DNA of 64,000 bases, taken from Cyclina sinensis (lineage: Eukaryota > Mollusca > Bivalvia > Venerida > Veneridae). The notes beneath the pieces were generated by a model. It was given only the letters and a program-made list of their open reading frames with translations, did no database searches and was not told where the DNA came from. Shown in pieces: positions 10,881 to 64,000 of the stretch. The position numbers and the translations under genes were made by a program. Location: positions 39,354,770 through 39,418,769 of the forward strand of contig JAAONU010000014.1 in assembly GCA_012932295.1 (NCBI GenBank), in the 5' to 3' direction. Numbering within the stretch: the first letter of the stretch is position 1; each line of letters begins with the position of its first letter.

Positions 10881-11888
10881 TTAACCAGGTTTTCAATTTT
10901 GAAAATCCTGGTTATTAGATTGGGGTATGGCGGGCGGATGGGCGGATGGGCGGGCGTCAAACGAAATTGTGTCCGCTCTGTAACTCTTCAACCCTTTGAA
11001 GAATTTTGATGAAACTTCAGACAAATGTTTACCACATCAAGATGACGTGCAGAACGCATGTTCCGCATGGCTGGCTCCAAGGTCAAGGTCACAGTGACAT
11101 TAACATTGAAAATCCTGTCCGCTCTGTAACTCTTCAACCCTTTGAAGAATTTTGATGAAACTTCAGACAAATGTTTACCACATCAAGATGACGTGCAGAA
11201 CGCATGTTCCGCATGGCTGGCTCCAAGGTCAAGGTCACAGTGACATTAACATTGAAAATCCTGTCCGCTCTGTAACTCTTCAACCCTTTGAAGAATTTTG
11301 ATGGCTCCAAGGTCAAGGTCACAGTGACATTAACATTGAAAATCCTGTCCGCTCTGTAACTCTTCAACCCTTTGAAGAATTTTGATGAAACTTCAGACAA
11401 ATGTTTACCACATCAAGATGACGTGCAGAACGCATGTTCCGCATGGCTGGCTCCAAGGTCAAGGTCACAGTGACATTAACATTGAAAATCCTGTCCGCTC
11501 TGTAACTCTTCAACCCTTTGAAGAATTTTGATGGCTCCAAGGTCAAGGTCACAGTGACATTAACATTGAAAATCCTGTCCGCTCTGTAACTCTTCAACCC
11601 TTTGAAGAATTTTGATGAAACTTCAGACAAATGTTTACCACATCAAGATGACGTGCAGAAATTGTTGTCTCATTATTAAGTATACTCCTTGCAGACAGTA
11701 TTGTTAGCCGAAATTTACATCCTACTCATTATCATGTATTCTCATGAATATTATCTTTTCCTTCATGTCATGTTATAATCTTTTGAATATTCATAGCAAT
11801 CTTCATTCCAAAATTCATACTATAGTATAGAATCAGAACAACATTTTTGAAAACCTGGTTTCGTGGCATTGCCATGTTTCTTGTTTTG
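10881..11888 (+). mobile_element. Nested element with AACCAGG/CCTGGTT ends
   Basis: The 5' end forms a hairpin: AACCAGGTTTTCAA pairs with TTGAAAATCCTGGTT. Near the 3' end TTGAAAACCTGGTTT (11847-11861) is the inverse of the 5' arm. It is followed by the small hairpin TGGCA-T-TGCCA (11864-11874) and a T-rich terminus, the same architecture as the element at 1902. Host repeat sequence (AACCTTA, then ACTTGTTTTCTCATTATCTC) flanks it on both sides. The core is the 146/84-bp satellite. Confidence 0.65.
10971..11660. repeat. 146/84-bp satellite with higher-order structure
   Basis: GTCCGCTCTGTAACTCTTCA recurs at 10971, 11117, 11263, 11347, 11493 and 11577, giving spacings 146, 146, 84, 146, 84. The 84-bp unit is the 146-bp unit with an internal 62-bp deletion, and 146+84 makes a 230-bp higher-order unit repeated twice. 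Copies look identical over the parts read, unlike all other arrays in the window, so the amplification is recent. The 60-88-residue open frames across it are repeat artefacts. Confidence 0.9.
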
Positions 11889-17710: not shown

Positions 17711-17928
17711 AGGAGGTACCGTGATTCGGGGGTAGAGCGCAGGGCTCCGGATCTGGAGGTCAAGGGTTCGAATCCCGTCAGAGGCGAGATTCTCTCACGA
17801 TCTTCACATTCCTCCACGCTGCGCGAATACTGGTTTGGAACCTAGGAAGCAGCCATCGAGCCTGATGAATCTAAGTTGTAAGAACTTGTATCGCAATCGA
17901 TGTAAAACAAATGAGTCTAAACTAAACA
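17711..17928 (+). mobile_element. tRNA-derived SINE (copy 1)
   Basis: The head is tRNA-like with GGGGGTAGAGCGCAGGGCTC and a perfect B box GGTTCGAATCC at about 17766. It is followed by a shared tail, ACTGGTTTGGAACC..GGAAGCAG and AGAACTTGTATCGCAATCGA. A second copy at 32952-33169 has the same head and tail. No cloverleaf acceptor stem forms, so it is not a functional tRNA gene. Confidence 0.75.
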
Positions 17929-18583: not shown

Positions 18584-21500
18584 ATGGAAAACTATGAGCA
18601 GAATGGACTGCTACATGATATGTTTATCCGTCAAGCGAGAGCCACACCAGAAGCAACAGCAGTTGTTGATGCCAGTGGAAATAAGCTCACTTTTGCCGAA
18701 CTTGACAGACTGTCAGAAATCCTTGCCATAAACTTGTACCTAAGGGGAGTGAAGCCAGACACATGTGTAGCTTTGTATATGGACAAGAGCATTGATTATG
18801 TTGTTGCATATATTGCAATACTGCGAGCTAGAGGTGCTTATCTGCCTCTTGACATATCATACCCAGACTTATTGCTCAAAGATATTCTTAAAGATGCAGA
18901 ACCTGTTGCTATAATTGCAGATGAGAATTTAGCAGAAAGAGTCAAAGGTCAGCAATTTTAAAAACAAGTTTTAAAAAAATACCATTTCAAGTTGGTTTTT
19001 TTTTATCTTAATATTATGTCAACATTAATCTGAGACATTCTGCATAATGTTTTATCAAATTAAACTTTCCATCTTTTTCAGTTAAATTAAAGAGAAAAAA
19101 ACACATTACAGACTTACCTTATTTAAATGTTTGTGTCAAACAATAAACAATGTTTCGTCATGCAATCTTCTGTGAAGAGAAATACGCTTTTAAAACAGAA
19201 ATTTCATAGAAAAAGAGTGTTTAAGCAGAACTGATACGTTGTAAATGAACATATATCTAACAGACTGAACATACATCTTCTTAGTGTTGCTATTGTGTAA
19301 CTATTTCATCTTATTTGTGTACCAGACCTTTTATTTTTTATTGTTAGATGCCAAGAATGTGATAACCCTGATGAAAGACTGGGACAAGAAAGTTTCAGAG
19401 GACAACAAAGAGAAGGAACTACCAGTGATAGAACAAACATTAGATAACCTTGCCTATATTGTGTACTCTTCTGGCACAACTGGGAAACCTAAAGGTAAAG
19501 GGTATAAGCAAAACTTTAAAGCATGTGATAATCATATAGATTCATATTGATTAAGTCAAATATATCAATAACAATATTTATATAATTTGGTGATTTGTTG
19601 GAATAGTGAATGTATAATAGTCATGATCAATAGTAATGGTAAACAATTTACTCAGAGGCTTGATTCTCATCAACTATATAGCTTTCAGTAAGCAGGATAT
19701 AGGCCTACATGTACTGACAATTTTACAATGCAAGGATTTATGAAAACATGGCAGACATTGAATTTACTTCTCATACAGAATGTCTGTCACTCAGCAAACA
19801 TTCTCTGAGAAAATGAGCACACTGAATTTGTCATTTTAGATATTGAATACATTCGGCACAGCTAAAAATCGAACAATTAATCTTTTCTGCTCTTCATTGA
19901 AAAGTATATCCACTGTTATTACAGGCATAAAATGTCCACACAGGGGTGCAGTGTTCTCATACCATGCAAGACATGTATTTTACCCATATGGAGAAAATGA
20001 AAGAGAAGCATGCAATGTATTCTTTGTTTGGGAACTTCTCAGACCACTTCTGAAAGGTAAGACAGACCGTATTGCTTTGCCTTTTTTTTAATGAAAAGTT
20101 GCTGGAGCTTTAAGGTTTGTATGCATAAGTGAAATATCACATTTGCTGAAGCATCATTGATTAAAATAGAAATATTTTTCTTGTAACCAAAAATAGTTAA
20201 GACATTGATTTTTACTGAATTCTGACAGTCACTTTGATTAAGTCAGTCAGATACAAGAAATTAAAGGCATGTCAGTAAGATGAAATTTATAATGTTTCAT
20301 GTATAACATGTACTTTTGAAGAGCCTGGTCTGTCAAAAAGACAGTTATAAGTGTTCAGCTTACGTACCTTATTTAGAGTTGGTTTGACAAATTGCCTCTC
20401 AAGCTTTTGAATCATAATGTTAAGGCTTTTTTGTCACTTTTTTAAATAACTTTAATTAACACTATGAAATTACTAAGAAAACAGTCAGAGAATATCACAT
20501 GAAACAAATCCAAATAAAAGTGTCTGTGTGTTGAGTATAGGTGAACTGTATACTTAAAAGTGTGCAACATTCTTTTTTCAGGAGTACCCCTGTATGTTAT
20601 ACCAAGCTCTGTGATATATGATCCAGCATTGCTCTGTGAGTTCTTGCATACAAACAAAATCACCAGAATGCTGTTCACACCTTCTCTCTTGGAAGCTGTT
20701 TTAAATACACCAGATCTTAATCTTACAGAACAGCTTCAAAGCATGAGGTAAGATCCCTCAGTGGTCTTTCATAATATATGCTCTGTTTGGTAACTGTTAC
20801 TATCCTTGTTTTGTCTCATATTAGGCTCCCTAGTTAAAGAAACAATGAAGGAACTGGGAGTTTCACATTTATACATATTCAGAAAATATTTTTTTAGCAA
20901 TCACCTAGTAACGTTTTCAAGCAGGTAACATTTAACATAAAGAAATGTTGTTCTGTAAATATATCTATAATTTATAACATTTTTTTATGTTAACGCAGCT
21001 CTTTTTGTTCAAGTAACTCTATAGAGCAGGTTTTACAACTCTAAGTGCATAAGGAGCACTGTGTAAATAAAACAGATACAAAGGAAACAATTCCTTATAT
21101 ACATTAAAAAAGGCTACAAACCCAAACCAACAAAGTCTATCTATCTTTAGCTAATGTTTGCATTAAGACATCTTCATTCTTTATGCTCAGAGTTTACTGA
21201 ATTAACTATTGTGTAAAATGAAATCAGAACTATTAAGTTGGTCAAAATTTATATGAAAAACATTTCAATATCATTTCTATTCTATTCTCAGAACTATTAT
21301 ATTTTGTGGAGAGGTTGTGTGTACAAGTCTGTATGAGAAATGCAAGAGGTTGTTACCATGGATACAGTTCCTCAACTTGTACAGTGTGTCAGAATGTCAT
21401 GATGTGGCTTGTGAAAATCTAAATGAATACTTTGAGAAGAACAAGGTAAGATTTGCAATGAAGAATGCATCATGCAGAGTTTATTTTCATTCATAATGTT

Positions 21501-24500
21501 AGAGTTTTTTAGAATATAAACAACAGGGATATCTGAATAGAGAGGTGGGTCAATGGTGCAGTTGTAATGCATGGGACTTCTAATCCATGGATTGCTAGTT
21601 TGATCCACCCACTCCTTGGCGTCTTACCACTTGTCTTTCAGATGAGTCATTAAACCTAGATCCCATTTATAGGTAAACATGCAAAAACAAACACGACTGT
21701 CTCTGGAATTAGATGCTTTCTGTATTTTGCACCACAACCACCAACATAAATAAAATTTCAAAGCATGATGAGATTGTCTAGATGAAATTAATAATTTTGC
21801 TTAAATTGAGATTTCTGGGATTTTCTAGATTTTAGGACAGTTATTGAATTTGTCTCATACACAAGAGATTCACACTCAAAGCTATAGTTAAATAGCTCAT
21901 TTGTTGCTATTTGTGTCATGTTACAATACAGAATGTTTTACCTTTATATTGATTTCTTCGACATTGTAACCGTACTGTCATTCAGGTCTTTTTAATCTTT
22001 CTTTAGATTTTAACGACCTACTGCATACCATGTGTGTCTTTTTAGGATGCATTGTTAACCAGGAAGTTTTGCCCAGTAGGAAAAGTTATTCCTGGAGTCA
22101 AAATAGTCATTACTGACAGCAACTTGAAACCACAACCTGTTGGTAGCTCAGGGGAGGTAAGTCAACTATTTCTTGTTTCAGTGCAAAAGACTTGCAGCTA
22201 ATGGTATGCATATGACATACTGTAAGTTATCCATGGAATGCAGCTTCATTTAAGTAGCAAATCATTATTTTGAATTTATTTGCTCTAGTATTATCATAAT
22301 TTTATGTCATGCACATTTTTATATGAATCAAAAAAGGACAAACTGATCTCAATACTATTCATAGTACATTTGTAAGCATGATTCAGTGACCCTTTTGTCA
22401 GAATGCAAATTAAGATTTTATTCTGAAAAAAAAAAAAAAACCATCTACAATTTGAAACAGATATATGTTGGAGGCCCTACCCTTGCCCATGGCTATCTGA
22501 ACAGACCAGAAATCCAGGCTAAAAGATTCATACCTAGACCTGACCTGGTGCCTGTAGAGTGTGGTGAGGTCTTATACCGCAGTGGTGATTGGGGCTATAT
22601 GCTGTCTGATGGAAGTCTTGAGATCTGTGGTCGATGTGACACCATGGTTAAAGTCAGAGGATACTCTATCGAAGTTCAGGTATAACTTGTTTTATTTAAA
22701 AGAAAAGAGCATGTAGTTACCCTTTTTTGATCAAAGTTTTCTATAGACTTAATTCTTCTATACACTACCTACAGAATCTAGTTTGTCAATCTTGAAGGAA
22801 TTCTGACCAATATATGGACCAGATTCACGAAAAGAAAGTGATATGAATATGTCAAAGGCATTCAGTTAATAAACCCCAAAAAATATCAAGTTTTTATACA
22901 TCTGATTCACTACCTAAATGTTAATTCCTAAACTGTGCTTGCCTCAGCCAGAGATTGAGGTTTGCCTGTATTCCTGTAGGCTGTAGAAGCAGCACTCATG
23001 GAGCTCAAGATGGTCCACAGCTGTGTAGTTCTTGTCAAGGGAGAGGAAGGGGAAGACAAGTTCTTGGTCTCCTACATTGTACCAATCAAAGAAACCACCA
23101 AGAAAGAAGTCAGGGAGGCCCTGAAAGAACGTCTTCCATTTTATATGATACCATCCTACTTTGTGTTTCTCTCAAAGTGAGTATGCCTATAAATTTCGTT
23201 CAAAGTGGGTATGCTTTCAAGTTTCTCTCAAAGTGAGTATGTGTATGAATTTCCCTCATAGTAAAAATGCTTATAAGTTTCTCTTAAAGTGAGTACGCTT
23301 ATATGTTTCTTTCAAAATGAGTATGCCTATAAATTTCTCTCAAAGTTAGTATGCTTGTAAGTCTATGTGGTAGATTGGAAACATGATGGTAGATATGGTT
23401 TCTGACTGTCATGTTGTAAAGTAGTTACATCATTGAAGGTCAAGGTTACAGTGAATTGATAATAGTTTAAATGTGATAGAAAATGTTCTAGGGAAGATCA
23501 AGGTCACAGTGACATTTACATGAAAACTTGAGATCAAACTGATGCACGATAGTACTTCTAATTGTTTCTACTTAGTTCAATTTTCAATTAAGAATTAATC
23601 AAATATGTTGATTGCAGAATTCCTGTTGTACCTGCAACTGGTAAGCTAGACAAGGCTGCCTTACCTCCCTTTGATAAACAGGAAGATGACATCATAAATG
23701 AGGGGAAACCAGTCACAACAACTGAGGTTTCTGTGGCAACAGTCTGGTGTAAAATTTTACAACTCAGGGAACCAGATATCCATGAAAGTTTCTTTGACCT
23801 TGGAGGGTAAGCATATAATGGGAAAAACAGATTTTGTATAAGATTTAAAAGCAGATAAAATTGAATTTCTTTTGGAAAGTAAAGACTTTGGTTAAACTTT
23901 TATTATGACAATAGATGTTGTGCAGTTCTTTGGAAATTTCATACATCTATGAACGGAAAAAGAAAATTTTGTGAAGTAGACTTTTTTTGCAGGCATTTAA
24001 TTACACTCGGATAATCTTAATTTACACAAGGTTTAAAACAATGAAAGCCCTGTTTAAAAGCTTCTGGTTTATGACGAGGCCCCTGTTAAAAGTACATATG
24101 ATGATGAACAGAATGGATGAGAATTTATGCACTGTTTCAAAAGTTATCTTGTCTAATTTTCAGACATTCTCTGTTGGCCACAGAGCTTATTAACAGAATA
24201 AACAGCCAGTTTGGAGTAAAACTACATGTGCATGAACTGTTTTCTTACCCCACAATATCAGCCCTTAGTACTCTGATAGACTCCAAACTCAACAAAGATG
24301 TGAATACACCAGAAAAGACAAGAGAGAGTGATGTAGACCTTCTAGCTGAAGTGGACAAACATGATTATATTGAAGTCAAGTAAGCTTATCAAAAATATCC
24401 AAATCACAAAAGAGGTTTTACTCGATTCTTTTCTTTTTCCTCCCAATTTCCTGTTGTTACTTCTTCCTTATATTCCCCCACCCCATCCTTCACCCCAATT

Positions 24501-27500
24501 TTCCACTAGTTTCTACTTCTTCTTTTAATTCTATTTCTCTAACTTCATGAACTTCTTCTTTTACATCTTTTTCTCTAACTTCATGTACTTCTTCTTTTAC
24601 TTCTATTTCTCTAACTTCATGTACTTCTTCTTTCACTTCTATTTCTCTAACTTCATGTACTTCTTCTTTTACTTCTTTTTCTCTAACTACATGTACTTCT
24701 TCTTTTACTTCTATTTCTCTAACTTCATGTACTTCTTCTTTCACTTCTATTTCTCTAACTTCATGTACTTCTTCTTTCCCTTCTATTTCTCTAACTTCAT
24801 GTACTTCTTCTTTTAATTCTATTTCTCTAACTTCATGTACTTCTTCTTTTACTTCTATTTCTCTAACTTCATGTACTTCTTCTTTCACTTCTATTTCTCT
24901 AACTTCATGTACTTCTTCTTTCCCTTCTATTTCTCTAACTTCATCTACTTCTTCTTTTAATTCTATTTCTCTAACTTCATGTACTTCTTCTTTTAATTCT
25001 ATTTCTCTAACTTCATGTACTTCTTCTTTTAATTCTATTTCTCTAACTTCATGTACTTCTTCTTTTACTTCTATTTCTCTAACTTCATGTACTTCTTCTT
25101 TTACTTCTATTTCTCTAACTTCATGTACTTCTTCCTTATACCTACTGTATCATCACAGTCTTCTTCTTAGACTTCTCCTCCTCATCTCTGTAGCAGCAAC
25201 ATCATCATTTTCATCATCTATTTTAGATTGCCACAATGTTTTTCATTTGCAGTTTCATTATTGTTATCTTTGCTGTCAGCATTGTCTTTTGGCTTTATGC
25301 TGTTTAGTCAAGTAAATGTGAATGTTATTCAATTGCAAAGGTTACTTAATTCTTATCAATCAGAATAACTAGCAAATCTATGGTCCAGCACAGTGCTATG
25401 ATAATGATAAAGTGTTCTTGACTAATATTTACATACCATAGTATTGCGCTTGGATACTGGAATTGCCACTGAGATAAAGAATGATGCAATCAAGCAGTAA
25501 ATTCTTATTAATCTCTGATAAGTTCTGATCTTGTTAACACCAAAACTAAACTAAAACCAGTCCAGACCAATATAGATCTGGATGAAACTGGTTTGCTGGT
25601 GTAAGTAGCTGATAACATAATCAAACAATATCAGAATGCAATAAAGGATGTGCAACTGTTTCAGTTGTCAATTCAGTGTTGCTAAACACAATATACTGTA
25701 TTGCCATCTGAATTAAGTAGAAATCTAAAGGAAACTCAGTATATAGATATGTGTAAAACAGACCTGCTTGAGAATGAAAAGTGTGAAAACCTTGTTACTG
25801 AAGTTGATAAATTCAATGATTTGACAGTGAAGTGAGTGTGCTTGTTCTAAATTGCTTGTCTGTAATCAAACATTTATCTTAGGCTCTTGTTAAAAAGGAG
25901 AATTGGAAGTGCATGTACAATTAAGTAGATTATGTAACATTTCTGGAAGAAACATTGTGTTGGAACAGAGAAATATTTTCATGGAAGATATGAGCTTGCT
26001 CTGTGGAAATGCTGTTTTAACAGGTTTCACTGTATTTCTCAACTTTTTTTTTCTCATATGTATTTAAAAGAGCACTCTTATTATGCATTATTTTTATTCA
26101 TCTTTTCAATTTACTTGCTTTTTACAATATTTTAAAGACATTTTTTTTTACATTTTTAAAAAATCTTCCTTTAAAAATTTTTCCTTTAGACACATAATTT
26201 TGTTTTCAATAGTATTTTATGTATTGCATCTATTATTACAGCATTGATATGCAGCTAAGGGCATTTTGGAGAACTTTTGCATTTTACAACGAGAAAAGAT
26301 TTGCCAAAGGACGTGTTCTGTTGACAGGTGCTACTGGCTTTCTTGGAGCTTTCGTTCTGAGGGAATTACTGCTGCAAACAAGGGTATGGTTGTACCAGGC
26401 TTTATAGATTCTGATGCACTTCTGTTCATTATTCTTAGTTTCAATCGGTCATTAAATATTTTAATTGACATAGAAATTTTTGTGTAGATACACCCTCTAA
26501 AACATGTAAAATGTCTTCTTAGAAAAAAATGGTTACTCCTTGTAAATCAGTAATGAAAACATTCAGTTTGTCTGTTACGAATTTCTAAAAGATTTTTTCT
26601 GCCTTAAATTATCAATAGCTTCATTCATATGATTTTGTACTCTGGTTGTTTAAATTGTCGTTTAGCTTGAGTGATAGTATGGCCTAGCTTTCATACAGTT
26701 ACAGGGATCGAAACTAAAGGGTGTAAAACCAACTATTTCTTCCATTGTCACATCATACTTAAGTTTTAAACAATATCATTCATCTAGGTATTTGTGTTTT
26801 GCTTGAGCCGAGAACTACCAGATGCAACTCCTTTAGAGAGATTAACATCAGTGCTAAGAAAGTTCGGCATTCTTGCAGAAGATGGGGAAACCCCTACAGA
26901 AGAACAGAAAACACTGCAACAGCTTGTCAACAAAAGGGTGGCTTTACTTAAAGGTGATTGTTTCTTATTGTCTTCACTACCTTTTCTCTGTTAAGTGCAA
27001 CCTTTCTAGAACAAATCTTGTCGACCAGATTGTTTTTTTAGGAGGTAACATCTGAAAAGAAATTTCCTCTTTGGCAGTATTATTCATTGTAACCATTAAT
27101 GAAATTTGGACAATTAATTGGCTAAGGACTTTCTACAGGCAGATACAGTTCTGGGAGCTCTAACTAAAGATAAATAGATAAATAGCAATACATTAAACAC
27201 ATAAGAAACCTTCTGGTTCTCAGTTAATTATTTCATATCTTTTCAAAAAACTGAACATACATTTGTTGACTCTTTTGCAGGTGATGTTGCTCTTCTCAAT
27301 ATGGGGCTATCAGATGAAGATTACATGTATGCTTGTTCTGACATTGATATGGTAATACATGCTGCAGCCAATGTTAACCTGGTCTATCCTTATAATGTAA
27401 GTCATATAGATTTTCTACTCACATTATACTTCCCAATGATCTTTCCCAGTAACTGGCTCAAGTTGTTTTTGATCTAAATGTATATATCATTGAAACATAC

Positions 27501-30500
27501 ACAGTTTAGAGTGCTGTCATTTCAGAAAATGAATATATTGCTGTGAGTGATGGAACTATTGTTCAGTCTGATCTTCCTATAAAGACCTGCAGTTGTAAGT
27601 CATACGTATTATTGATTTCAGGCTTTGGCTGGAGCCAATGTCTATGGTACAGCTTATGTGGTCAAGTTTGCGTGCACTGGCAAAATCAAACCCATACATT
27701 ACATAAGGTAAGTCAACTTATAAAAAGGAACAACACATCTAGGATATTAAACTTTCATGCAGTTGTAACATGGTATACCTTTAGGTAGATTTTGAATGAG
27801 GGACATTGTTGATTACAAATTATCTCCCTTACTCAGATAACCTCAAAGGTAGACCAAATTGCACTTTGGTCCTTTCAGTTGAAATCGTCTGACTTTATCC
27901 TTGTTTCTCTTTGTGATTGTCTTGACTTTTAGCTGTGAAAATTGTCACTAATATAATAAATAAAAAGTTAGGATTAACAAAAAAACAAACATTATGGTAT
28001 TAGCAAACCATGTTGCTAAACTAAATGTTTAATCTGACTATCATTGTTGCAAATAATTAGGCTTTAAAATTATCACAATACCAAAAGAGAAAATAGCAAT
28101 AAGCAGAGGAATCCAAATGAAAGGACCAAAGTAATATTAGAGAGTATTCAGGGTAGATAATCCACCAATGTCCCCCATTAATGTTACTGAGAGAAAAGCC
28201 TATTAATCCAACTCTGAAGCATTTTTAAAGCAAAAACAAAGACAAAAAAAAAAACAACAACCAAAAATTATATAACTCTATATAAAAAAGATATCTCTTA
28301 AATGAAAATCAGTATAACACACTGGTGATATAAATACATCTTGTATGAAAGTGAAACCTATCATTCAATATGACTCATCATAAATGACCATGTAAGTTTA
28401 TTCTTACAATTGAACTTTGTCCTGGGACTAATGACTTTATAAAACTCATAATAAAGACCTTATATGTTACTTAGTGCAAGTGAACTTTGCTCACAAACCA
28501 GATTTGACATAAACCATCAGAACATACCTTGTGAGTTGTTTTTTTTTCATGCCAGTGATTTTTGTTTAAAACCTATGGTTTGACATAACCCATCATAATA
28601 GATCTTGTGACTGAACTTTGATCACAAAACTCATACAGGCTTGCCCCATCATAAAAGACCTTGAACGTTACTTTTATATGGCTTGATATAACCTATAAAA
28701 AGACACAAAACTTTGTTTACAGGTACTGATTTGTCTGTTATATGCTGCATTGTCAGTAAGATTTCTGAAGTTATATGAGTCGTTTCATCTTAAATAATAT
28801 AAAACATTTACTCAGTGTCAGATACTGGGAGGTGTTCATGTTTGCTAAAGTCTAGAAGAACTCATACACCTATAATATTTATTTATAGCACAGATGCAGT
28901 TTTCCCACCAGGTTTGAAGGATTGTTCTGAAGCAGATGATGCTGGTTCCTATCATACACAATTGCATGATGGGTACTCACAAACCAAGTGGGTAGCAGAA
29001 CAAATTGTCAGAAGAGCTGGACAAAGGGGAATCCCTGTTACTATATATAGATTAGGTAACAAAACTTATTTCTGACTCAGAAAAGCAAAATTAGTTTGTT
29101 TGTTTGATGGAACATTACTTTGATACAACAATGTAATCAGAAACCTTAAAGTGACTGACTCACAGATGGGTTGACGATGCATAAAAAAAGAAAATGTTTA
29201 TACATATAGAATTTCTAGTTGTTGTGAAGATTTATATCGAAACTAACTGTCTCATATTTTGTTACAGAAACACATCATGATATAAAGTTTTACACACTTT
29301 TATCAATAAAAAATTTATCCTGCTAGTCGCAGGCTAGATAATTTGATTTATTGTTAATTTCAACTGTTAGTACTAACAAGTGTCTGTGGCTCAGTGATTT
29401 AGCTTGCCAACCTTAATTTCACTGACTGAAAGGGCATGGGTTCGAATCCTGTTGAATTCAAATTCTTTTTTCTTCAGTTTTCATGTGGTACGTATAAAAG
29501 CTTAAAATTATGTTTTGTCCATAGTACATTTACTTCTCTTTGATTTGAAAGTAAAACATTTTTTAAGCTGAATTCTGTGAGAATCAGTTGCTTTAAATTA
29601 ATGTTTAATAATTTTGCCTTTATTAGTTTAAATCTTAATTGAAAGCTACACCTTGGTGCCTGCTGAGTTTTGTCATTTTTAATGCAGAAGTCCACTAGTA
29701 TTTTGTAAAACGGGTTATGATGGCTAGCAATTCAGTCTTGGTTCTGTTTTAAGGTAACATGTCTGGAGACAGTAAAACAGCCAGTTGGAACCCTCAGGAC
29801 TTCACACTGATCCTGCTTCAAGCTTGTACCAAGCTTGGAAAAGCACCTGCTGTCGACTGGCACATGGAAATGACACCAGTCAACTTTGCAGCCAACTTTA
29901 TTGTTAAAATGATCAAAAATTCTTCTCAGGCACTTGGAAAAACCTTTCATATCATTAATGACAAGCCCATTCAATCTAGGTATGTGATCATATTTAATGA
30001 AATTTTAAAATGCATTTTGCTCTTTGAAATTAAAATTATAGAAAAAGAGTTATGCACTCTGTCACCAACCTTTAAGGAGAAAAAATATCAACTTTAGTGT
30101 AGAGACAGAGTGAATAATGTCTCAGCAAACTGCACATCTTTTGTAGTTTGTCAGTCATGAGCAAAGAATGCAAATGCTTACTATACTAATATAGAAAAAG
30201 ACATTTATCCCTGTGATTTTGAATCTGGACTAAATAAAGCAGTGAATTTCAGTTCTGCTTAATATGTAACATCATGAGAGTGGTCAGTTGGGCTTATATT
30301 TTTTTATTTATATTTTTTTTCACTGCTCCATTCTTCTGTATTACAGATGGGTATTTGAATGGATGAATGCAAATGGCTACCGTCTAAAAATTGTCAGCTT
30401 TGAAGAATGGAGGAAAAGGTAATAAAAAGTTGTCCCGCATGCTTTTGAATGTACAATGATGCCTTTTTAGGACTTATTCAGCAATTTTACTGAAATACTT

Positions 30501-33500
30501 TTTTATTTGCTTCTTGACAAAATATTTATTTTCCTTGTCCTAAATTGTTTTATTAGTGGAAATTAATGACTAACTTATATTAATTGAAATTTTGTGTATC
30601 TGTATATGGTGCATATTTATTTCAGTGTTCTTGATCTGAATGGAAATGGTAATGGTTTTCTTCACAGACTTATGGAGTCTTACATCACGTAAGTATAATT
30701 GTTTAATAAATTACCCAAAGTCTGCTCCAACTCTTTTCAACCAGTCTGTAGACAAAAAATACATCTGCTTTAATTTTTTTTCAGACAAAACATGAAAATA
30801 AATCGAATGCTCTAAAATGATTTATACTGCATACCGCCCAACTTTTTTAAAAATCCTTGCATGTTAAAATTAATTAAAAAAGTAATTTTTTCAGACCTGG
30901 CAGTAGATCAATGTTTTTTTCCAAATGCAATTTAATGACAGATTGCACCAGTGTTTCAATCCTCAGAGATAACAAAGCTTAATGTATCTCATTTTTGCTG
31001 CTTTAATAGGATTCATATTCAATGCATTGATCAGTTCATTTTGTTTCACATTTCAGAAGTTCTGAATTTTTCACCACCCTGAGTACATACAAAGCTGCTA
31101 ATCTCCATGCAGTATTATCCCAGCTTGGATTACAGTACCCTTACATTGACGCTGGCCTACTGGACACATACTTCACCAAACTGTCTCACAAAGGGATCAT
31201 TTCTTCCAAGAAATACAAAATCTTTACTGGTATGTTTGACTGTTTGCTTTTGAAGGGAGGTAATTCAGTATATACCTGAATTTAATAATACAGTGTTAAC
31301 TCCCCTGAAAAAAGTGCCCCATTTTTATGCACACTGTCGTGATGACCAACTAAACTTTGACATTGACCTGTTTGCATACTCTGATCAATAGGGACATTTT
31401 AAAAACGGATTTAAAATGGCTGAAAAGGGGCCAGGTATGGGCATATATAGTAAAAATATAAATTTTACAATTTAGCTAAAATGTTCTACTTTCAGTTTAT
31501 ATAACAGCAGGGCAATTGAGATTAAGGCCCTGAACATATACAGGTATATATCTAATAAGATTATTCACATGCTAATTTGTGTGCATGTACTTTCTGTTGA
31601 TATTATGTTAACTAAGTTCTGTTATTTCTGCAAAAATGATTTGGTGGACATTAATTTTTACAAGTATAAAATGCTATATGGTTGAACAGGGCCTCAATTA
31701 AGGCCCTGGGTTGAATGACCTGTTATTACATATATTTGTCAAGGCCAAGGGAAGTTTGATTTAGAATTGCTTTCTGAACAGACTATCATGCAGTGTGACA
31801 GCATGTGTAAATTATTGTCATTTAGTTATTTTTCTGTTCTGTCAAAAGAAAGATTGTATTTGTGATTTTTAATTCTACTGTATAAATTAAAAGTTTAGGC
31901 ATTAAATAACAAATAGCAGTAAGTACATCAGTTCATAGTAAATATATGACATGGTTCAAAGTTTTGCTATCTTCAACAAGGCCTAGCTATGAAATATTTA
32001 TAAGATATGGTTCAGCTTATGCTCAGAAACCAAAAGGTCAGTTCTCACATCCAGCTGTGATATCTTTTTAGTAAAACCATTGATTTTTTAAGTACTTTTA
32101 TTCATGTTACAGGTAAAGCTCTAGAAAACAAGGTTGCTATAGTAACAGGTGCATCCAGTGGTATTGGTAAGGCTATAGCTTTGGCCTTGGCAGAAGCAGG
32201 TGCTAAGGTTGCCATGGCAGCCAGAAGGGTTGAAAGGTTAGAGGAAGTGGAATCTACCATTGCAACAGCTGGTGGTGTCTCAATTTCAGTTAAAACTGAT
32301 GTTACTAACAGAGCTGAGGTAATATTGGTAGTATATGTATTACAATATAATGTAACGTATAGAATTTAAAATCATTAGTTTGACAGAAAATTATCTTTGC
32401 TATTAAACCATGCATTGAAATATGATGATTGCTGTCATCAAGTAGAATCAAAATAAGTTTAAAGAACTTGTTTCTCAGTTCATGTGAAAGAAATAAGCTT
32501 GAAGTTACAAAATAAACATTATATATATTACAAATATGATTGTTACTGGTCAAATAATTCTAAGATTGCTACCAGACTATGTGGTTTAAAGAAACACCAT
32601 AATTGTTTGCTTTGTCATGACATTTTGTTGATTTACTGAAAGGTAAGAAAATCTAAATGTAACACTACTATACCTATCCAGTGACAGTATTTCATAAATA
32701 AATAAACACTTCTTTTTCAGGTGAAGGAGTTGGTAAAACACACAGAAATGACTCTAGGTCCTGTAGATATTTTAGTCAACAATGCTGGTATCATGTACTA
32801 CACAATGATGAAAAATCTACTTGAAGAGGAGTGGGAGAACCAAATTGATGTGAATGTCAAGGTCAGTCTTCATATTCGAAGTTGTTTTTAAGATGTTTCA
32901 AAATAAATTTAGGAGTTAAAATGTATGTCCCTGCAATTATTAGTTGTGATTGAGGAGGGGCAGTGGTCGAGGGGTTAGAGCACCAGACTCCCGATCCAGA
33001 GGTTGCTGGTTTGAATCCCAGCAGAGGTGAGAGTCTCCAGTGAGATTCCACATTCCTCACTTTCAGCGCGAGCACTGGTTTGAATCCAGGAAGCAGTCAC
33101 TGAGAGGGATTAATATATGTTGGAAGAACTTGCTTCCCAATCAATGTAGAACAAATAAGTTTAAATTAAAAGTTGTAATATTGAACCATCTGTCTGTTGA
33201 TTTATTCATTTTATCTTGCTAGTGGACACATCATGTTCTTTGTTCTTATATTAACATCAGTCATGTATTTAGTCATGGTACCTTTAAAGCAGTGATTGAT
33301 AGCATCATGCCAGTGTTCAAGTTTATTATTACTTGTGCCTAATACCTTGTAAGATTTGTTTAAATCAGTCAAACAAAAGGAGGTAAGGCAATATCCCACT
33401 TACAGACAAGTTATATGTATGAAAGGATCTGGCAGAAACCATCTGTCAATATTATGTCAGCAAGAAAATCTGTCTGTAACACTGATTTTTGAAAGGAATT

Positions 33501-34912
33501 TGGCAGAAATGGTTTTGACACTTTCAGGGTGTGACACATTGTATTGGAGCAGTGCTTGATGGGATGTTGAAGAGGGGTAAAGGTCACATAGTCAACATGT
33601 CCTCTGATGCAGGCAGAAGGGTAGACTAAATTATTGATTGTTTTCTATAAGTAATATATTCAAGTGGGTAAAACTATTACAGTTGAAAAGATATTTATTC
33701 AGTAATTATAATAATAATAATAATAATGAATATAACAGCTTTATTTACTGTGGATAACATATTTGGTGCAAAGACCAATTTTCAGTATGGCTAACATCAG
33801 AATACATATACATTTTTACAACAGTATTAAACATTTTGACAGACAAGTACCGGTAATATGGCAAGGCTAACAAACATGTAGACATGCTAATCATTAATAA
33901 TAACATTCTGAATGTTTACTTGCAAATCTATCTCTGATCATGAATTCAGGATTTCTTTCACTTTTCAAGCAGTGGTTCTTTTTTCACTTAAACTTCTGAA
34001 TAAATCTCTCTTATATTACCGGTAGCCTATGTAATGAATATAAAGTTAAAATATTTTCAGGGGTTTGCAGGCCTTGCAGTGTATTCAGGGACAAAGTTCT
34101 ATGTTGAGGGTCTTTCACAGGGTATGAGACATGAGCTTTCAGGGTCAGGGGTCAGAGTGACATGTATACAACCAGGAGATGTAAAGACAGAACTGATCGG
34201 GCATACTACTGACCTAGAGGTAAGGTTTCCATCTTCTAAATGCCTTTTTTTGGTTTTATTGGGGTTTAACACCAGTTTTAACAGCTGAGATCATATCCCG
34301 GCGATTAGTCCTAACCAATGTTCCTGAGTATCCAACAAGTTTACAAACCAAATTTCTCCGCAAGTGACTGACTACTTCCTCACTTGTTTCTACTTAATGC
34401 CTGCCTGTAAGCCATTGTTGTATGTAGTTCTGTAACAGTTACCAAGGTTTAGATTGCCAGCACAATTCATATCCATAGACTGTTTGAAATAAGATTTAAT
34501 TTCCTTTTTTTCTGGTATTTGTGTTTTGGCTGTACTGCATTTTCACAAGGCTGACCCATCGTCCTGATATTTAAAAGGTCTAGTGCAAGTTTATAAAGAC
34601 AGTTTACTGTAGCGAATGAGCAGTATACAGTTACAGTAGTATTTTTAAATGATTTTATTTTTATTTTATTCTTATAAGAATACAATACCAATCATTATTC
34701 TAGTCAGTGCTGTACAGTTAACTGATTTAAGTTGATTTTATTTTAAGAGTTTCTATTGTAAATTATAGGCCAAAGAGAAGTTTGATGGTAGCCAATCGTG
34801 TAAGATACTGGAGCCGACAGATATTGCCAATGCCGTGGTGTATGCCGTGTCACAACCAGAATATGTCGCAGTCAATGAAATACTGATTGAACCTAGAGAA
34901 TCCCATGTTTGA
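18584..34912 (+). CDS. NRPS-like A-T-R-R enzyme: adenylation, carrier, thioester reductase and SDR reductase (24 exons)
   Basis: Predicted cytosolic megasynthase-like reductase. The A domain (about residues 15-545) activates a carboxylic acid with ATP. The T domain (about 546-610) carries it as a pantetheine thioester on Ser562. R1 (about 640-1030) reduces the thioester to an aldehyde and R2 (1037-1282) could reduce that to an alcohol. I joined 24 exons by hand; every junction is GT-AG with compatible phase, giving 3849 nt (1282 residues plus TGA). The start is the first ATG of exon 1, and the protein begins where A domains normally begin. The architecture equals that of the fungal ATRR glycine betaine reductase. 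Alternatives are an aminoadipate-reductase-like or other acid reductase. Domain order and motifs are seen directly; the substrate is inference. There is no condensation domain, so it is not a peptide synthetase. Confidence 0.9.
21537..21735 (+). mobile_element. SINE with tRNA-like head and conserved GATGAGTCATTAAACC tail
   Basis: In intron 5 of the A-T-R-R gene. The head GTGGGTCAATGGTGCAGT..TCTAATCCATGG..GTTTGATCCACCCAC looks tRNA-derived. The following GATGAGTCATTAAACCTAGA resembles the central domain shared by several mollusc SINE families (from memory). It differs in head and tail from the SINEs at 17711 and 32952. Confidence 0.55.
23173..23365 (+). repeat. 28-bp minisatellite overlapping the exon 8 splice donor
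   Basis: Seven copies in exact 28-bp register start at 23173, 23201, 23229, 23257, 23285, 23313 and 23341, consensus CAAAGTGAGTATGCTTATAA plus TTTCTCT. Copy 1 is the real exon 8 end and 5' splice site (CAAA, then GTGAGTATG). Copies 3 and 5 keep a perfect donor, copy 2 has GTGGGT, copy 7 has GTTAGT, and copies 4 and 6 have lost it. Confidence 0.9.
23618..24379 (+). other. Exons 9-10: carrier (T/PCP) domain
   Basis: Exon 9 ends in FFDLGG and exon 10 (24164-24379) continues HSLLATELI, so the phosphopantetheine attachment motif FFDLGGHSL is split by intron 9 (24-base-exact phase 2 junction). Ser562 is the expected attachment residue. The domain runs through LHVHELFSYPTISALSTLID, after which an acidic linker (DLLAEVDKHDYIEVK) leads to R1. 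A 4'-phosphopantetheinyl transferase encoded elsewhere would be required for activity. Confidence 0.88.
24508..25136 (+). repeat. 36-bp minisatellite in intron 10
   Basis: AACTTCATG recurs every 36 bases from 24541 to 25117 without slippage, 17 copies of about TCTATTTCTCTAACTTCATG plus TACTTCTTCTTTTACT. Variants at one site (TTTTACT, TTTCACT, TTTCCCT, TTTTAAT) show a four-unit, 144-bp higher-order repeat at 24697-24840 and 24841-24984. Because 36 is a multiple of three, both strands stay open for long stretches, but it lies in an intron and encodes only a 12-residue repeat, so I do not call a gene. Confidence 0.9.
25721..25831 (+). other. Candidate 111-nt cassette or decayed exon in intron 10
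   Basis: An open segment between AAGTAG and GTGAGT donor starts with one base and ends with two, so it fits both the end of exon 10 and the start of exon 11 without changing frame (37 extra codons). Its last residues, NLVTEVDKFNDLTVK, resemble the end of exon 10, DLLAEVDKHDYIEVK, and both use the same donor phase. It may be a duplicated linker exon used alternatively, or its remnant. The acceptor has a weak pyrimidine tract. Confidence 0.45.
28330..28710. repeat. Diverged tandem repeat in intron 14
   Basis: Phrases such as CCATCATAAnAGACCTTG, TGAACTTTGnTCACAAA and TTGACATAA recur at intervals of roughly 75-90 bases. Copies are degenerate and non-coding. Confidence 0.55.
29146..29596 (+). mobile_element. 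TTAA-flanked inverted-repeat element with tRNA-like module (copy 2)
   Basis: In intron 15 of the A-T-R-R gene. The left end TTAAAGTGACTGACTCACAG is matched in reverse by CTGTGAGAATCAGTTGCTTT then AA on the right. It aligns along its whole length with the reverse of copy 1 (1418-1837), including AAAGAAAATGTTTATACATA, TATAAAGTTTTACACACTTT, the TAGTC-loop hairpin and the tRNA-like part with B box GGTTCGAATCC at about 29440. The copies are clearly old relative to each other. Confidence 0.8.
32952..33169 (+). mobile_element. tRNA-derived SINE (copy 2)
   Basis: In intron 21 of the A-T-R-R gene. It has the head GAGGGGTTAGAGCACCAGAC and the degenerate B box GGTTTGAATCC. The tail ACTGGTTTGAATCCAGGAAG and GAAGAACTTGCTTCCCAATC matches copy 1 at 17711. 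Confidence 0.75.
33705..33727. repeat. Short (AAT)n microsatellite
   Basis: About seven ATA/AAT repeats in intron 22 of the A-T-R-R gene. Confidence 0.8.
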
Positions 34913-35606
34913 CCTGGTAGATGCTAAGGTTGTTGAGATGTGTACAGATGTTGTGTTGAAACAGCTGATAGTAATGTGTTTGAAGAACTACTGAATATGT
35001 GATGGGTTATAATGTAATATTTAGTGAGACATTTGGCTTCAGATTTTTCGAGTTCATGAATAAGAAAAAGACTTGTTGAATCTTGTTTTCAGAGATTCTT
35101 CAGGTCTGTATTTCATTTTCGAGTCTGTATTTGATATAGACTTGTTTATTATTGTATTTGAACAGATCAGTTGGGGTGCTGGTGATATCTTAGTGACTAA
35201 AAAAGCAAATATTGCAGGCCATCAACATCGACTGTTTTACAGGTTGATTATGGTCTGCACTGGTCACAAAGGTTAAAAAATGGCCTACAGCAGAGTAAAG
35301 GTTAAGCTTGGTGACTATTTGTACATCACATTATATATGTTACTAAAGTTCTGAAGTGATTCTGAATTACAATTTTGTAAAAAGATGTCATTGAAGGTGA
35401 CATTGATATGAGAAGATTGTGTGTTCAAAGATGGAAGATGTGAATACTGGTGCTTCTGAAATGTTGCAATTCATGGGTCCTAATAAGGGCATATTAGGAC
35501 CCAGATATACCTAAATGCACATGCACTGTTTGTTGAAACTAATGCATTTCAATAAAATTGAAAATTTCTTTTCAGTTTATAGTCAATTGATGATAAATTC
35601 AATAAA
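34913..35606 (+). other. 3' UTR of the A-T-R-R gene with hairpin and poly(A) signals
   Basis: After the TGA at 34910-34912 there is no further coding exon. AATAAA occurs at 35551-35556 and 35601-35606. A perfect 12-bp inverted repeat, TGGGTCCTAATA and TATTAGGACCCA with a 6-base loop, lies at 35474-35503, 48 bases before the first signal. Transcript ends were not seen, only inferred. Confidence 0.6.
35551..35556 (+). terminator. Probable polyadenylation signal of the A-T-R-R gene
   Basis: AATAAA 639 bases past the stop codon, followed by T-rich sequence; a second AATAAA follows at 35601. Confidence 0.5.
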
Positions 35607-42500: not shown

Positions 42501-45500
42501 AGTCCTCTCATCAAGGTCAACAAAAGTGGCAAGGTATTTAAAAATCTTTCCAAGCATGGAAAAGTTATGGCCCGGACAAGTCAATCCATCCACATTTTTA
42601 CCTTTGAGATTCCACTCTGACCTTGACCCCTGAGGTAAGAACAAGGGTCTTGCATGTGACATCCTTCTCATCAAAGTGAACAAAAGTACCAAAGTATTTA
42701 AAAATCCTTCCATGCATGGAGAAGTTATGGCCAGGACAAGAAATCCATGCACATTTGTACCATACAGTGGTCACCTTGACCTTTGAGCTATAACCCTGGG
42801 TGTTGCACACAACATGCTGTCTCATTGAGGAAAACATTTATGCCAAGTTATTGAGAATCTCTCTATCCTTGGTTAAGTTATACCCTGGACAAACTCAGAT
42901 GGATGCTCTCACTAACACATGTACATACACTGATCCTCCATTGTGGCAACTTTATTGAGCCCACAGCAAGGAGGCAGGACAAAACTGCTTTCACTTCTAA
43001 GATGAATATAAATGCAATTATGCCTTCCAGTATAGTTTCAGATTTAATATTTGGGCTAGTGAATTTTTTTTTTTTAACATATTCAGCTTTCTTTAATGGG
43101 AGTAAAGCTTTTTTCATAGTGAAGTAATTTTAGTAAACAGGCTAGTAATGCTTGTTTTACTAAAAATTAAAAATACACATCCATGCAAACGTGTAAATCT
43201 TATTTAGAGAGCAAACTGAACTTTACAAGTTTAACACCATCTAAGCAATAACAAAACAACATTCTGTGTGAGCTGTCTGCCAAGCTACATGTCTGCATAA
43301 CTTTATTTCCTTATAGTAACCTAGGAAATCAATGTTAATGCAAGTGTCATCAAATTTAGACAAGTCAGATTTGTTAATGTCTCAACTTTTCTTTCCATCT
43401 GTCTTAACTTTATGGTGGTCTGTAAAAACTAGTCAACATACTGTTTCTATTTGGAACATCTACTCTAGAGTATCAAATCTTACCCTTTTTGAAATCTATA
43501 TGCAGTATATTGCCAAAAACGGTGTTTTGGGTGGACAGGACAATTTGATTCTCTAACACTGTGTGAACAATATATATTTTTGAAGAACAAAAAGCAATAA
43601 CTCAATAATGCTTCCTTGATATAATATGCTCAACTATAGTAAGCCTACATGAGAATGGTGTAAAAAGAAATCAATCTGGTTTCACTGTTTTATTCAGAGA
43701 GCAATTAGTGTGTTTTCAAGCCTTTTACTTTCTGTCTTCTTTCTAGTGTACCAGACAAAATCTGATAAAACTGAATGTGACATCTGTTCACAAAACAATT
43801 CACACAACTGCTAAGTACACAGAAACTATCAACAGTAAAAGATATACCCAACTAAAGTAAGACTACAATTCATGCATTCTTTAGAATGTTAGAAACTGTA
43901 TATGTGGTCCTTTTCAAAACTATGTAACTCTAAACAGTTAAAACTAAGTACCTATACCTGTACTGTGATTTTACTTACTTTTGGTGTATATTCCTATTTA
44001 TTTGTAAAAAACGTTATGTAATTTGAAACAGTATGAATGAAAGAGAAGTGCTGTAGTCTTTGTATATACCTATACATGTATACCAGTAATTGTTTCTTAC
44101 TCAATATACAAATCTTTACATTTTTTCAGCTATCTATCATGGGGGGAAAAAAAAAATTATTGTGATACACATAATGAAAACGAAAATGCATGTACAGTAA
44201 AACTCCTCAATTAAGGACAGTCACCTTTCCTTTAGAAAAGTGGCCTTAACTGACTGGGTGTCCTAAATAATGGATTGTATGTGGCCACGACAGCTCAGGA
44301 AAAATCTAAGATATCTTTAAAAAAAACTTTTAATGGTACTGCATAAAATAACCGATAAAACTATTATGCATTTCACTTATTTCTACTATTTATAACATTA
44401 AACCAATCAACAACATACAGTTATATATTTTGTTTTCTAGTGTTGATAAAGTGATAAACCTTTTGCTTAAAGAATAATTGAGTACTTCACACTGTGGTGA
44501 TATTTGTATGTGTGCATGTGTGTTGAAGAATGAACTGATTATAAACGTAATTATTATGAGTTATCTCTCGATAATATAATATTTCTTGTCAAAACTCTAT
44601 TAAACATTGCCGGATTAGCATTGCCAATGAAATTTGAAGCCCCTTATTCATAAAAAAATGGTATTATTCTCAAATTTCAAACAGGCCTTGTGGGAGTGTC
44701 GTAATCTAATGTCACAAAAGATAACCAGTAATGACCTATTGTGGAATGTGTGAAAGGTGTGAAACCACCAAAAAACATTCTTTCTGTATCCTTATGGAAT
44801 TCATAAATTTCACAGGGCTGTAAAACAAAGAAAGACCTCTTTCTAACTGACTTTCACTTGCATATTCTTGTACATTTGCAATACTATTTTTGAAAAATAG
44901 CAGGAGAAGTGTGGGTCATTTTTCAAACAAGAAAGATATTCCTGCTCATGTAAACTTACCCATAAAATTAACAAAAAATCTCACCAAATTTTCAGATTTG
45001 GGGTATGTGAAAGAACTTCTTATTCTGTATTCCACTCTGAATGTATATGAGCATAAAATTGCATCTATATTATAAGAAATTAATGCCATAATAGCAGAGT
45101 CCCCTAAATACTGAAGTCCCTAATTACTGTAATACAGGGCAGAAAACATCCATTCTTAACTACTTTGTCCATGATACAGGAGTGTCTGTACTTTCAGTGT
45201 GGCCGTAAGGTGGGTTGTTACTGTACTAACACATTCACAAAACTTAATCTACCACTGATACACTTCCTGAAAAATTAGGCACATGCTACTAGACATAGGA
45301 AGGATAATATTTTAAACCTTGCTGTATAGGATCACATGTATATATCTGTAACATTATCACTATTTTACCTGTCCAACTTTCAGTGCTTCTAATACTCTCT
45401 CATCTTTCTCCATTGAATGTGCCCTTAATAAAACATTCCATGCTGCTGTTCTTATACCCTCTCTGTTTTTGTCATTGGCTAAACATCTACAGATCTTCAC

Positions 45501-48500
45501 CATAGATTGTACAGCACCAAACCGAATACGCCAACTCCAGTCATTTGGTCCTGAAAACAGAATGAATGGTGCTAATATGAAGTACAATGAAGACCTACTG
45601 GTATATCCAAAAAGATTCATAATTGTTATGTGGTGAGTTCTCAATCACTCTCTGAATGACGAACATTTTGTTAATCTCTCATTTTCAGTTAGATTTTTTT
45701 TAATTTTTACAATTAAAAATGACAAAAACTTTATAAAGAGTAAAACCCAACTGCCTTTGAAGAAAATTCCATACTTGGATTAAAATACCACTTTACTGAC
45801 CATATTTATCTGCTTCTGATAAAATAATGGATAAAGGATACTGGTTACTATAGTAACTTTAGCTTTTTAGAAACTTTATTGAACTTAATGACAATACGAC
45901 TAGAGAGTCCAAGCTAAACTTACTTGAAGAAATCTGGCAAGGACAGGTAAATACAGGACACAGCCCTTCTTAAATAATTCTAAATACTTACTTTTAAAAA
46001 TTGTGTCCCAAATCTCAAGAACTTCATGGTTTCAAGATACAAGAGGACAGGATCTTGAATACACGAATACACTACTTGTGAGCTATAATGAACATACCTC
46101 CATCTCTGGATTCATTTACTGCTTTGAAGAATGCCATGTCCAGTAATCCAGCACTGTGAAGGGGTAGAGTGTTGTTACTTCTCTTGAACGGATCGGCAAT
46201 ATCTCTGTTAGACCCCATTAATGCTAACTTCTGGATATCAGCACTTCCTCCATGTAAACAAATGTCAGCTAAGATATCAGTGTAAGTGATAGCAACTTCC
46301 CAGTGCCAGCCGTTGATACCAGGCATCTCAGGGCTCTGCAAAGTATGATAATTGCCTCATTGCCATCAGGTTCAGATCTTTGACATTATAAATGTGATTT
46401 CAGTGAAGCAATGTAAGTCTCTAGATGTTTAAAGTTAGATTATTTGTATGTTCAATAAGTTGGTAAACTATTTTAAACAAAACAAATGAAGGAATTTCAA
46501 CTCCAAAGTGCATCAAAATGATTTATGACAAAACATGGGACATATAAGAACTGTCACAGAAAAACCCACTTTATAAATGAATGAATGTGTGCACAATGTT
46601 GCCTATTTTTTTTTTCTTGGTTTGTTAATCCCTTATTTCTTTGATGATATTTGAACATAAACCCCTTCCAATACAGAAAAACTTGGCAGGCAAAATGCAC
46701 ATACCACAGCGTTTGTGTAAGTCTGTACTGTGCTAGCCTCAGAGGCTCTACCACTTGGTAAGGTGGTACCAGCCTCTGCTTGGTAACCAGTTCCTGGTGG
46801 ATAAAAGCTCTCTCCAGTACCAGCTGTGGTACGGGAACCTTGTGTCACTGCCCTTGTCCTGCAATTTAATTCTAAATATATTTTACGTGATGAACACATG
46901 CACTTGTCAATAACTAACACAGAAGTCTCTGCTCTCCTTTAATCACTGCATACTCATACAAGATATATCTTTTAAAATCATCAGGTAAATTCACAGAATT
47001 CAACATACATTTCTGTGCATATGAAAATATTAAGTTTCCAGGAACATCAATTTAACAATGGTAAGTACTTTCAACTTCCAACTTAAACCTGGACTTAATG
47101 TCAGCTATAAACTGCACCTGTTACCTAAGATTTTCACTCCTCTCTCTCACTTGCATAAGAACATTAGTATAAGTTCTCAGATGAATTGATGCAAAGATAA
47201 AAAGATGATATACTAAAATAAATCAAAGCTGAAGAACCAAAAAATATATAGAAAAATACCCCGGTGTAGACTTTGGGGATGTTCTTCTAACAGCTTCAGG
47301 CTTTGAGCCATCTTCCTTGGGAACAGCTGATGTATCAAAGGACACCTCTCGTTTAAATATAGCAGAAACCGATGGTTGTACTTGAGACATTTCTTCTCTA
47401 AAAGACATGAAATTTATTATACAGTTCAAAATAGTCTAGACTAAACACACAGGAATGACTACTTTAAACATAACACTGGAATTACTTCCTTAACCAAGGA
47501 AATGACTGTTAAAACATCACAGTGGAATGACTATTTAAAACATCACACTGGGACGACTACTTAAAACACAGAAATTAGTTAACATTACAATGGACTGACT
47601 ACATTAAACATCACAACTGAGTGACCACTTCAAGCAACACAATGGAATGATAATGTTAAATATCATAATGGAATGGCTACATTAAACATCACATTGAAAA
47701 GACTACTCCAAACATCACAATGGAAAGATTATGTTAAACATAACATTGGAATTACTTCTTTCAACTTAGTGAGTACAATTTTGTTTTTAACTATTGTAAA
47801 AAAGATGGTGAAAATCAATTAAAAGCATCATTGGTGACCTAAGTTTTTGCCTCAACTGTACCTTGACCAAGACTATCCCTGAAAAATATCAAAATAATTC
47901 ATGGACAAGCTCTCATTTCATGTGTCTGAAAATTTCTGTTGTGCTTTACAGAATGTTTTTAAAACTGTAAATCAGTTTCATGACTGTCACAATCTGTTAG
48001 GATACTGATCTTGTACTGCCAAGATTCAATGACTTACTTATTGGCTCCATCATTTTTCATGGGTGATTCTGTGTATGGTGGGGAGGCTTCACTAGGGTCT
48101 GTGTCCTTTGCTGATGAGTGCCCCTCTGCACTTTTACCTTTGGATGAAGCTGAAATGAAAAAAAGGAGATTTGTAATCAGCTCACATAGTGCTTTACTAG
48201 CTAAAAGGCACAGACACATTTTATGCAAAGTTTGTACAACATGCACTGGTTTAACATATAAATTAAATTATTACCATCAACACTTTATTGATATGTTTTA
48301 TAGCTCATTCTGAACCATCAAAACTTTGCAATATTTCAAGGTTTAATAAATATTCTACCTGTTCCAGACTTATTCTTTTCTGAATCGCTTTCCTCACTTC
48401 TCTCATAGATGTCACTCAAGGTAGGCTTTGAGCTTGCAACACTTACACGAGATGCCTCATCCTTAGGTGTTGTCTCTTCACTTGAAAAACTGTAGCTTTC

Positions 48501-59640: not shown

Positions 59641-64000
<4,360 letters not shown>

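Follow-up and report, generated by a model that had tools for sequence, protein, structure and literature searches.

A predicted ATRR-type carboxylic acid reductase gene in an animal genome, with glycine betaine as a plausible substrate

Does a free-living animal carry a gene whose product could return glycine betaine to choline? The question is raised by a locus on contig JAAONU010000014.1 of an assembly filed under Cyclina sinensis, of which a stretch of 64,000 nucleotides (the window) was analyzed. The window sits at about 39.4 Mb of its contig, in a genome of 903 Mb and 154 contigs, and its plus strand holds, at 18584..34912, a gene whose predicted protein joins an adenylation domain (A), a carrier domain (T), a thioester reductase (R1), and a short-chain dehydrogenase (SDR; R2). 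By architecture and residues this gene appears to belong to the ATRR kind, already known in fungi and in a plant-parasitic nematode, and it is apparently real, complete, and intact. Its product is probably a carboxylic acid reductase of the ATRR (ChNPS10-like) type contained in one protein, with glycine betaine to choline as its most likely reaction.

The ATRR-type gene was modeled as 24 exons from start to stop codon, with a coding sequence of 3849 nt and a product of 1282 residues free of internal stops. Exon boundaries were chosen from splice signals and reading frame, guided by domain homology, and the exon-intron layout is to be read as a predicted model; each of the 23 introns begins with GT and ends with AG. 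Stop codons make up 6.85% of the intron triplets, and the chance of 1282 open codons is given by log10 P of about -39.5. The GC content of the coding sequence is 0.42, as against 0.307 in the introns. In addition, a search of the whole genome for R-domain family members independently matched exons 13 and 15 of the model, both within R1.

According to Pfam, the predicted protein has four domains in the order A, carrier, R1, and R2, all far over cut-off: AMP-binding (residues 16-371, E-value 2.4e-64), PP-binding (536-598, 5.3e-17), NAD_binding_4 (659-907, 4.1e-55), and adh_short (1042-1229, 5.9e-58). The A domain starts with exon 1 (18584..18947, residues 1-122), which has an in-frame stop immediately 5' of its ATG, and continues through exon 2 (19348..19494), with the motif YSSGTTGKPKG from residue 161; exon 3 (19925..20056), with the pocket stretch FFVWELLRP, which has no Asp at the 235-equivalent; exon 4 (20582..20747); exon 5 (21292..21445), with LYSVSECHDVACE and Asp307 at the 330-equivalent; exon 6 (22046..22156); exon 7 (22461..22679), with A7/A8-type motifs; and exon 8 (22980..23176), its C-terminal portion. 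Exon 9 (23618..23806) carries Lys506 and the beginning of the carrier domain, and exon 10 (24164..24379) the carrier Ser562 in LGGHS. We take YSSGTTGKPKG to be the A3 core, EICGRCDTMVKVRGYSIE (from residue 412) the A8-type motif, and Lys506 the A10-type lysine. R1 begins with TGATGFLG in exon 11 (26242..26383) and runs through exons 12 (26788..26953), 13 (27281..27396), 14 (27622..27707), 15 (28889..29055; Tyr831 and Lys835 in GYSQTK), 16 (29754..29979), 17 (30347..30418), and 18 (30626..30688) to exon 19 (31057..31229). R2 is encoded by exon 20 (32113..32318, from residue 1036; TGASSGIG), exon 21 (32721..32861; NNAG), exon 22 (33528..33620; Ser1177), exon 23 (34061..34219; Tyr1190 and Lys1194), and exon 24 (34769..34912), which ends in the stop codon. 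All exons lie on the plus strand, as does the first AATAAA past the stop codon (35551..35556, about 640 nt 3' of it), a candidate poly(A) signal. The first-pass annotation had described one 24-exon gene carrying adenylation, carrier, thioester reductase, and SDR domains with the A3, A8, and A10 elements, Ser562, Tyr831/Lys835, and Ser1177/Tyr1190/Lys1194 intact; the open frame of 1282 residues and the Pfam order agree with that description, and all the residues are present at the numbers claimed.

The domains, their order, and the intact residues make acid to thioester to aldehyde to alcohol the natural reading. R1 scores 273.4 bits with the thioester-reductase model TIGR01746, over the cut-off of 213.35, and among solved proteins the MxaA reductase domain is its best relative; for R2 it is clavaldehyde dehydrogenase, an aldehyde-to-alcohol SDR going by its name. 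Both reductases have basic residues after their second beta strand (CLSRE and AARR), as is the rule for enzymes that use NADPH. A small acid would be activated by the A domain at the expense of ATP and attached to the Ser562 phosphopantetheine, from which R1, using NADPH, would free it as an aldehyde; the alcohol would then be formed from this aldehyde by R2, a classical SDR, again using NADPH. Since MxaA is a four-electron reductase, R1 alone could in principle reach the alcohol; a two-plus-two electron split between R1 and a dedicated aldehyde-type SDR seems more likely. This reaction sequence is taken from knowledge of the domain families; as to substrate and physiological role, we infer that glycine betaine would most likely be reduced to betaine aldehyde and then to choline.

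The ATRR of Aspergillus nidulans was reportedly found in 2019 to be a glycine betaine reductase. In fungi more generally, the ChNPS10 subfamily was described in 2010 as an A-T unit followed by a thioester reductase and then a short-chain dehydrogenase (PMC2823734). The predicted protein has the same units in the same order, a likeness of architecture and not of aligned sequence, which so far bears out the fungal comparison drawn in the first-pass annotation. The same annotation held that the animal role of such an enzyme seems undescribed, which was too strong. MiATRR of the nematode Meloidogyne incognita, an A-T-R1-R2 arrangement in a single animal protein (1306 residues, compared with 1282 here), was studied in 2024 as a glycine betaine reductase (PMC11050029). 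In yeast it allowed growth at glycine betaine levels inhibitory to controls, and host-derived RNA interference against it led to fewer galls and egg masses, an effect aggravated by betaine and relieved by choline; its authors propose that it converts betaine to choline, and they mention that ATRR genes had earlier been seen in several protists and invertebrates (PMC11050029). MiATRR differs in coming from another animal and in having been studied for function, whereas the gene described here is known from sequence alone and was compared by architecture. No published account of a mollusc ATRR was found in the literature searched, whose coverage leaves out most subscription journals. A survey of nonribosomal peptide synthetases (NRPSs) in 1059 animal genomes makes no mention of the A-T-R-R architecture in the part of it available (PMC10531068).

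The substrate was approached through the adenylation pocket, using an alignment of 14 rows: the query, another A-T-R protein of the same genome, and 12 bacterial A-T-R proteins picked from 30 matches listed, out of at least 5000 matching records. Of the 14 rows, 12 have the FD (Asp235) that amino-acid pockets usually carry; the query and a protein of Nostoc carneum lack it. Instead, the query has the stretch FFVW (F203, F204, and W206), and it alone among the 14 rows has an aspartate, Asp307, at the position equivalent to 330 of GrsA. By GrsA numbering and one alignment, its code reads roughly V-F-W-L-I-C-L-D-V-K, with the first two letters unsure because two other alignments place a gap around 235-237. 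With Asp235 missing, a common alpha-amino acid is a less likely substrate, the aromatic residues together with the Asp suit a quaternary ammonium group, and the absence of Asp235 may, as we infer, be a defining trait of ATRR enzymes. The pocket fits a betaine-like substrate, which is not proof, and glycine betaine is plausible. Several observations weigh against this reading. A pocket that lacks Asp235 is compatible with many acids, and positions 235-237 fall inside a gap that was aligned differently across three alignments. In two rows that keep Asp235 (L002 and L024), the neighboring 331-equivalent is an Asp, so an Asp in that part of the pocket is no mark of betaine. The A domain misses the amino acid adenylation model TIGR01733 (295 bits, cut-off 317.4) and is therefore divergent. 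The evidence on MiATRR consists of growth, expression, and parasitism, and no product assay is described in the part of the study available (PMC11050029). An alternative of some weight, which we consider unlikely, is an ATRR-type acid-to-alcohol reductase whose substrate is a different betaine, an omega-amino acid, or an acid outside the amino acids: the identity of the A domain to the 13 other rows is 36.4% at most, and the Nostoc protein also lacks Asp235 and has Ser at the 330-equivalent, so that betaine does not follow from the loss of Asp235 by itself; on the other side, the new Asp and aromatic residues would suit a quaternary ammonium group, and a nematode protein with this order of domains acts as a betaine reductase in yeast (PMC11050029).

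The remaining explanations concern whether the gene was assembled and classified correctly. The start of R2 coincides with the exon 19/20 boundary, as expected of a gene fusion, a stand-alone bacterial relative 59% identical to R2 exists, and intron 19 contains two ATTAAA motifs (AATAAA motifs also occur in some later introns). These points would agree with two adjacent genes, an A-T-R gene and a separate SDR gene, wrongly merged. However, the phase 1 end of exon 19 is continued in frame by exon 20 with canonical splice sites on both sides, and no Met precedes TGASSGIG in the open frame of exon 20; on these grounds a separate R2 gene was rejected. Continued from exon 19 into intron 19, the frame is closed by a stop about 16 codons later. 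Fungal and nematode proteins, moreover, carry the same fusion (PMC2823734; PMC11050029). A wrongful merger is thus very unlikely, and the joined A-T-R-R model appears much the better. It is extremely unlikely that the joined protein belongs to the AASDH, Lys2, or carboxylic acid reductase (CAR) families. Ebony, AASDH/ACSF4-U26, Lys2, and bacterial CAR have A and carrier domains in common with it, and Lys2 and CAR an R domain as well; to our knowledge, none of them has an R1-R2 pair. The shared domains earn 399.2 bits from the Lys2 model TIGR03443 and 169.9 bits from the CAR model NF041592, against cut-offs of 1030.1 and 1300 bits, and on these scores the Lys2 alpha-aminoadipate reductase and the bacterial CAR were rejected. 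AASDH has C-terminal PQQ repeats and is not known to have reductase domains; it was set aside on the two reductase domains of the query, including the C-terminal SDR, and the absence of a PQQ family among the 14 Pfam families listed. In Ebony an amine-selecting domain follows A-T and no reductases are known, and it was rejected because R1 and R2 come after the carrier. The failed models and the missing PQQ repeat uphold the separation from AASDH and Lys2 proposed at the outset. By their names, 60 of the 67 solved relatives of the A domain among the matches listed look microbial, which would be in keeping with a microbial contaminant; such an origin, or a decayed gene, has a negligible probability in view of 24 exons with an intact frame, the flanking TMEM232 and GH9 genes, and a location some 39.4 Mb into one of the contigs of the 903-Mb genome.

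In a tree of the 14 rows, the query pairs with the Nostoc protein at 100/99 support, both being flagged as long branches, and when this protein is removed the query has no supported neighbor. The Nostoc protein (N. carneum NIES-2107, BAY35388.1) resembles the query in lacking Asp235 and has the highest A-domain score of the 13; it differs in being a stand-alone A-T-R of 1001 residues without R2. It ranks first of 13 by the A domain (36.4%) and seventh of 13 by the R domain; A and R1 are therefore without common closest bacterial kin in this small set. Its gene lies on a conjugative plasmid of N. carneum (L001:2980-5985). The other A-T-R protein of the same genome comes last of 13 by the A domain and is therefore no recent copy of the ATRR-type gene. 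R2 (residues 1039-1282) is 59% identical to a stand-alone SDR from a metagenome-assembled genome of Rubrobacteraceae, in which the stretch MYYTMMKN is intact; that protein has a single domain, and its gene adjoins genes for an Stf0 sulfotransferase, a sulfatase, and an APS kinase (L004:1098-4735); choline and a sulfated alcohol would be candidate substrates of it. The best plasmid-borne SDR listed reaches 46.5%. Within what was searched, bacterial proteins thus come nearer to R2 than to the A-T-R part. A scan of bacterial contigs with six short peptide patterns, a design uninformative on bacterial A-T-R-R genes, confirmed 3 of 24 stretches, all of them SDR alone, and a scan of viral contigs returned no relative. 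The genome-wide R-domain search, which scored the best candidates exon by exon and so gives a lower bound, listed 15 matches: two in this gene, one in a formyltransferase-A-T-R gene, ten on contig C12, and a weak pair on C9 and C16. Two stretches of C12 were inspected, which hold six of its ten matches and resemble what we take to be fatty acyl-CoA reductases. No second ATRR copy is among these 15 matches, subject to the same lower bound.

The formyltransferase-A-T-R gene may be the odder find. It is an intronless open reading frame (ORF) of 1607 residues on the plus strand of a 60-Mb contig (C3, about 22761374-22766197; L015:875-5698), and its domains are Formyl_trans_N, a stretch without assignment at about residues 170-587, AMP-binding, PP-binding, and NAD_binding_4. 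Against plasmids, the best 10 of 2751 records have 28-31% identity from near the start, including the formyltransferase, into the A or carrier domain; the relatives among the matches listed are from rhizobia, Mycetohabitans, and Legionella lytica, and no plasmid place covers 80% of the ORF. Its GC content is above that of its flanks; the coding GC of the ATRR-type gene is also above that of its introns, and the GC of the ORF is therefore no sign of transfer. The ORF may be an NRPS-like formyltransferase gene of bacterial type that an animal acquired by horizontal transfer. For mollusc NRPSs, the animal survey could not settle the matter of contamination, since those genes sat on short scaffolds (PMC10531068). 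If the host is a mollusc, as the assembly has it, an ORF on a 60-Mb contig would answer that doubt.

Around the ATRR-type gene, 10 flank segments, hand-picked from 138 scored segments that include the ATRR-type exons, were submitted to Pfam, a sampling that may miss other genes. GH9 was matched by three, TMEM232 by three (one under the curated cut-off), an hAT transposase by one, a BED finger at cut-off by one, and nothing by two; no metabolic gene cluster was found around the gene among these 10 segments. All matched features lie downstream on the minus strand: TMEM232 segments at about 45372-53264, an hAT-type transposase remnant with the BED zinc finger at 55078-55885, and GH9 cellulase segments at about 61238-63552 (all three sent were matched). 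Long tandem arrays occur 5' of the gene at 2076-3534 and 10970-11660 (a 145-bp unit; 146/230-bp units, some with 100% match). The repeat families are suggestive of a bivalve. Within intron 10, a 36-bp repeat is present 17 times at 24514-25134; its minus strand is open for about 215 codons, with KEEVHEVREIE repeats, and it is probably a minisatellite rather than a gene. Two further stretches, 32950-33100 (GGTTTGAATCCCAGC at 32950) and 17711-17864, look like tRNA-derived repeats, in which ARAGORN calls no tRNA. Rfam and tRNA scans of the window gave no matches.

In textbook animal metabolism, the oxidation of choline to betaine is regarded as irreversible. In the usual account for bivalves, choline dehydrogenase and betaine aldehyde dehydrogenase make betaine and BHMT degrades it (PMC11702833). 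We tentatively propose that a free-living, non-parasitic animal runs choline oxidation backwards, from glycine betaine to choline, by means of a genome-encoded ATRR; in a betaine-rich animal, the osmolyte would be returned to the choline pool. If this is true, betaine formation would no longer be one-way in this animal, and the disposal of betaine in dilute water could be coupled to the supply of choline and phospholipid. The complete gene model makes the betaine-to-choline idea directly testable. A working ATRR here would also untie the enzyme from plant parasitism, the explanation offered for the nematode enzyme, the one animal example met in the literature searched, and in an invertebrate that is no plant parasite it would provide animals with a way back from betaine and a handle on the balance between osmolyte and choline.

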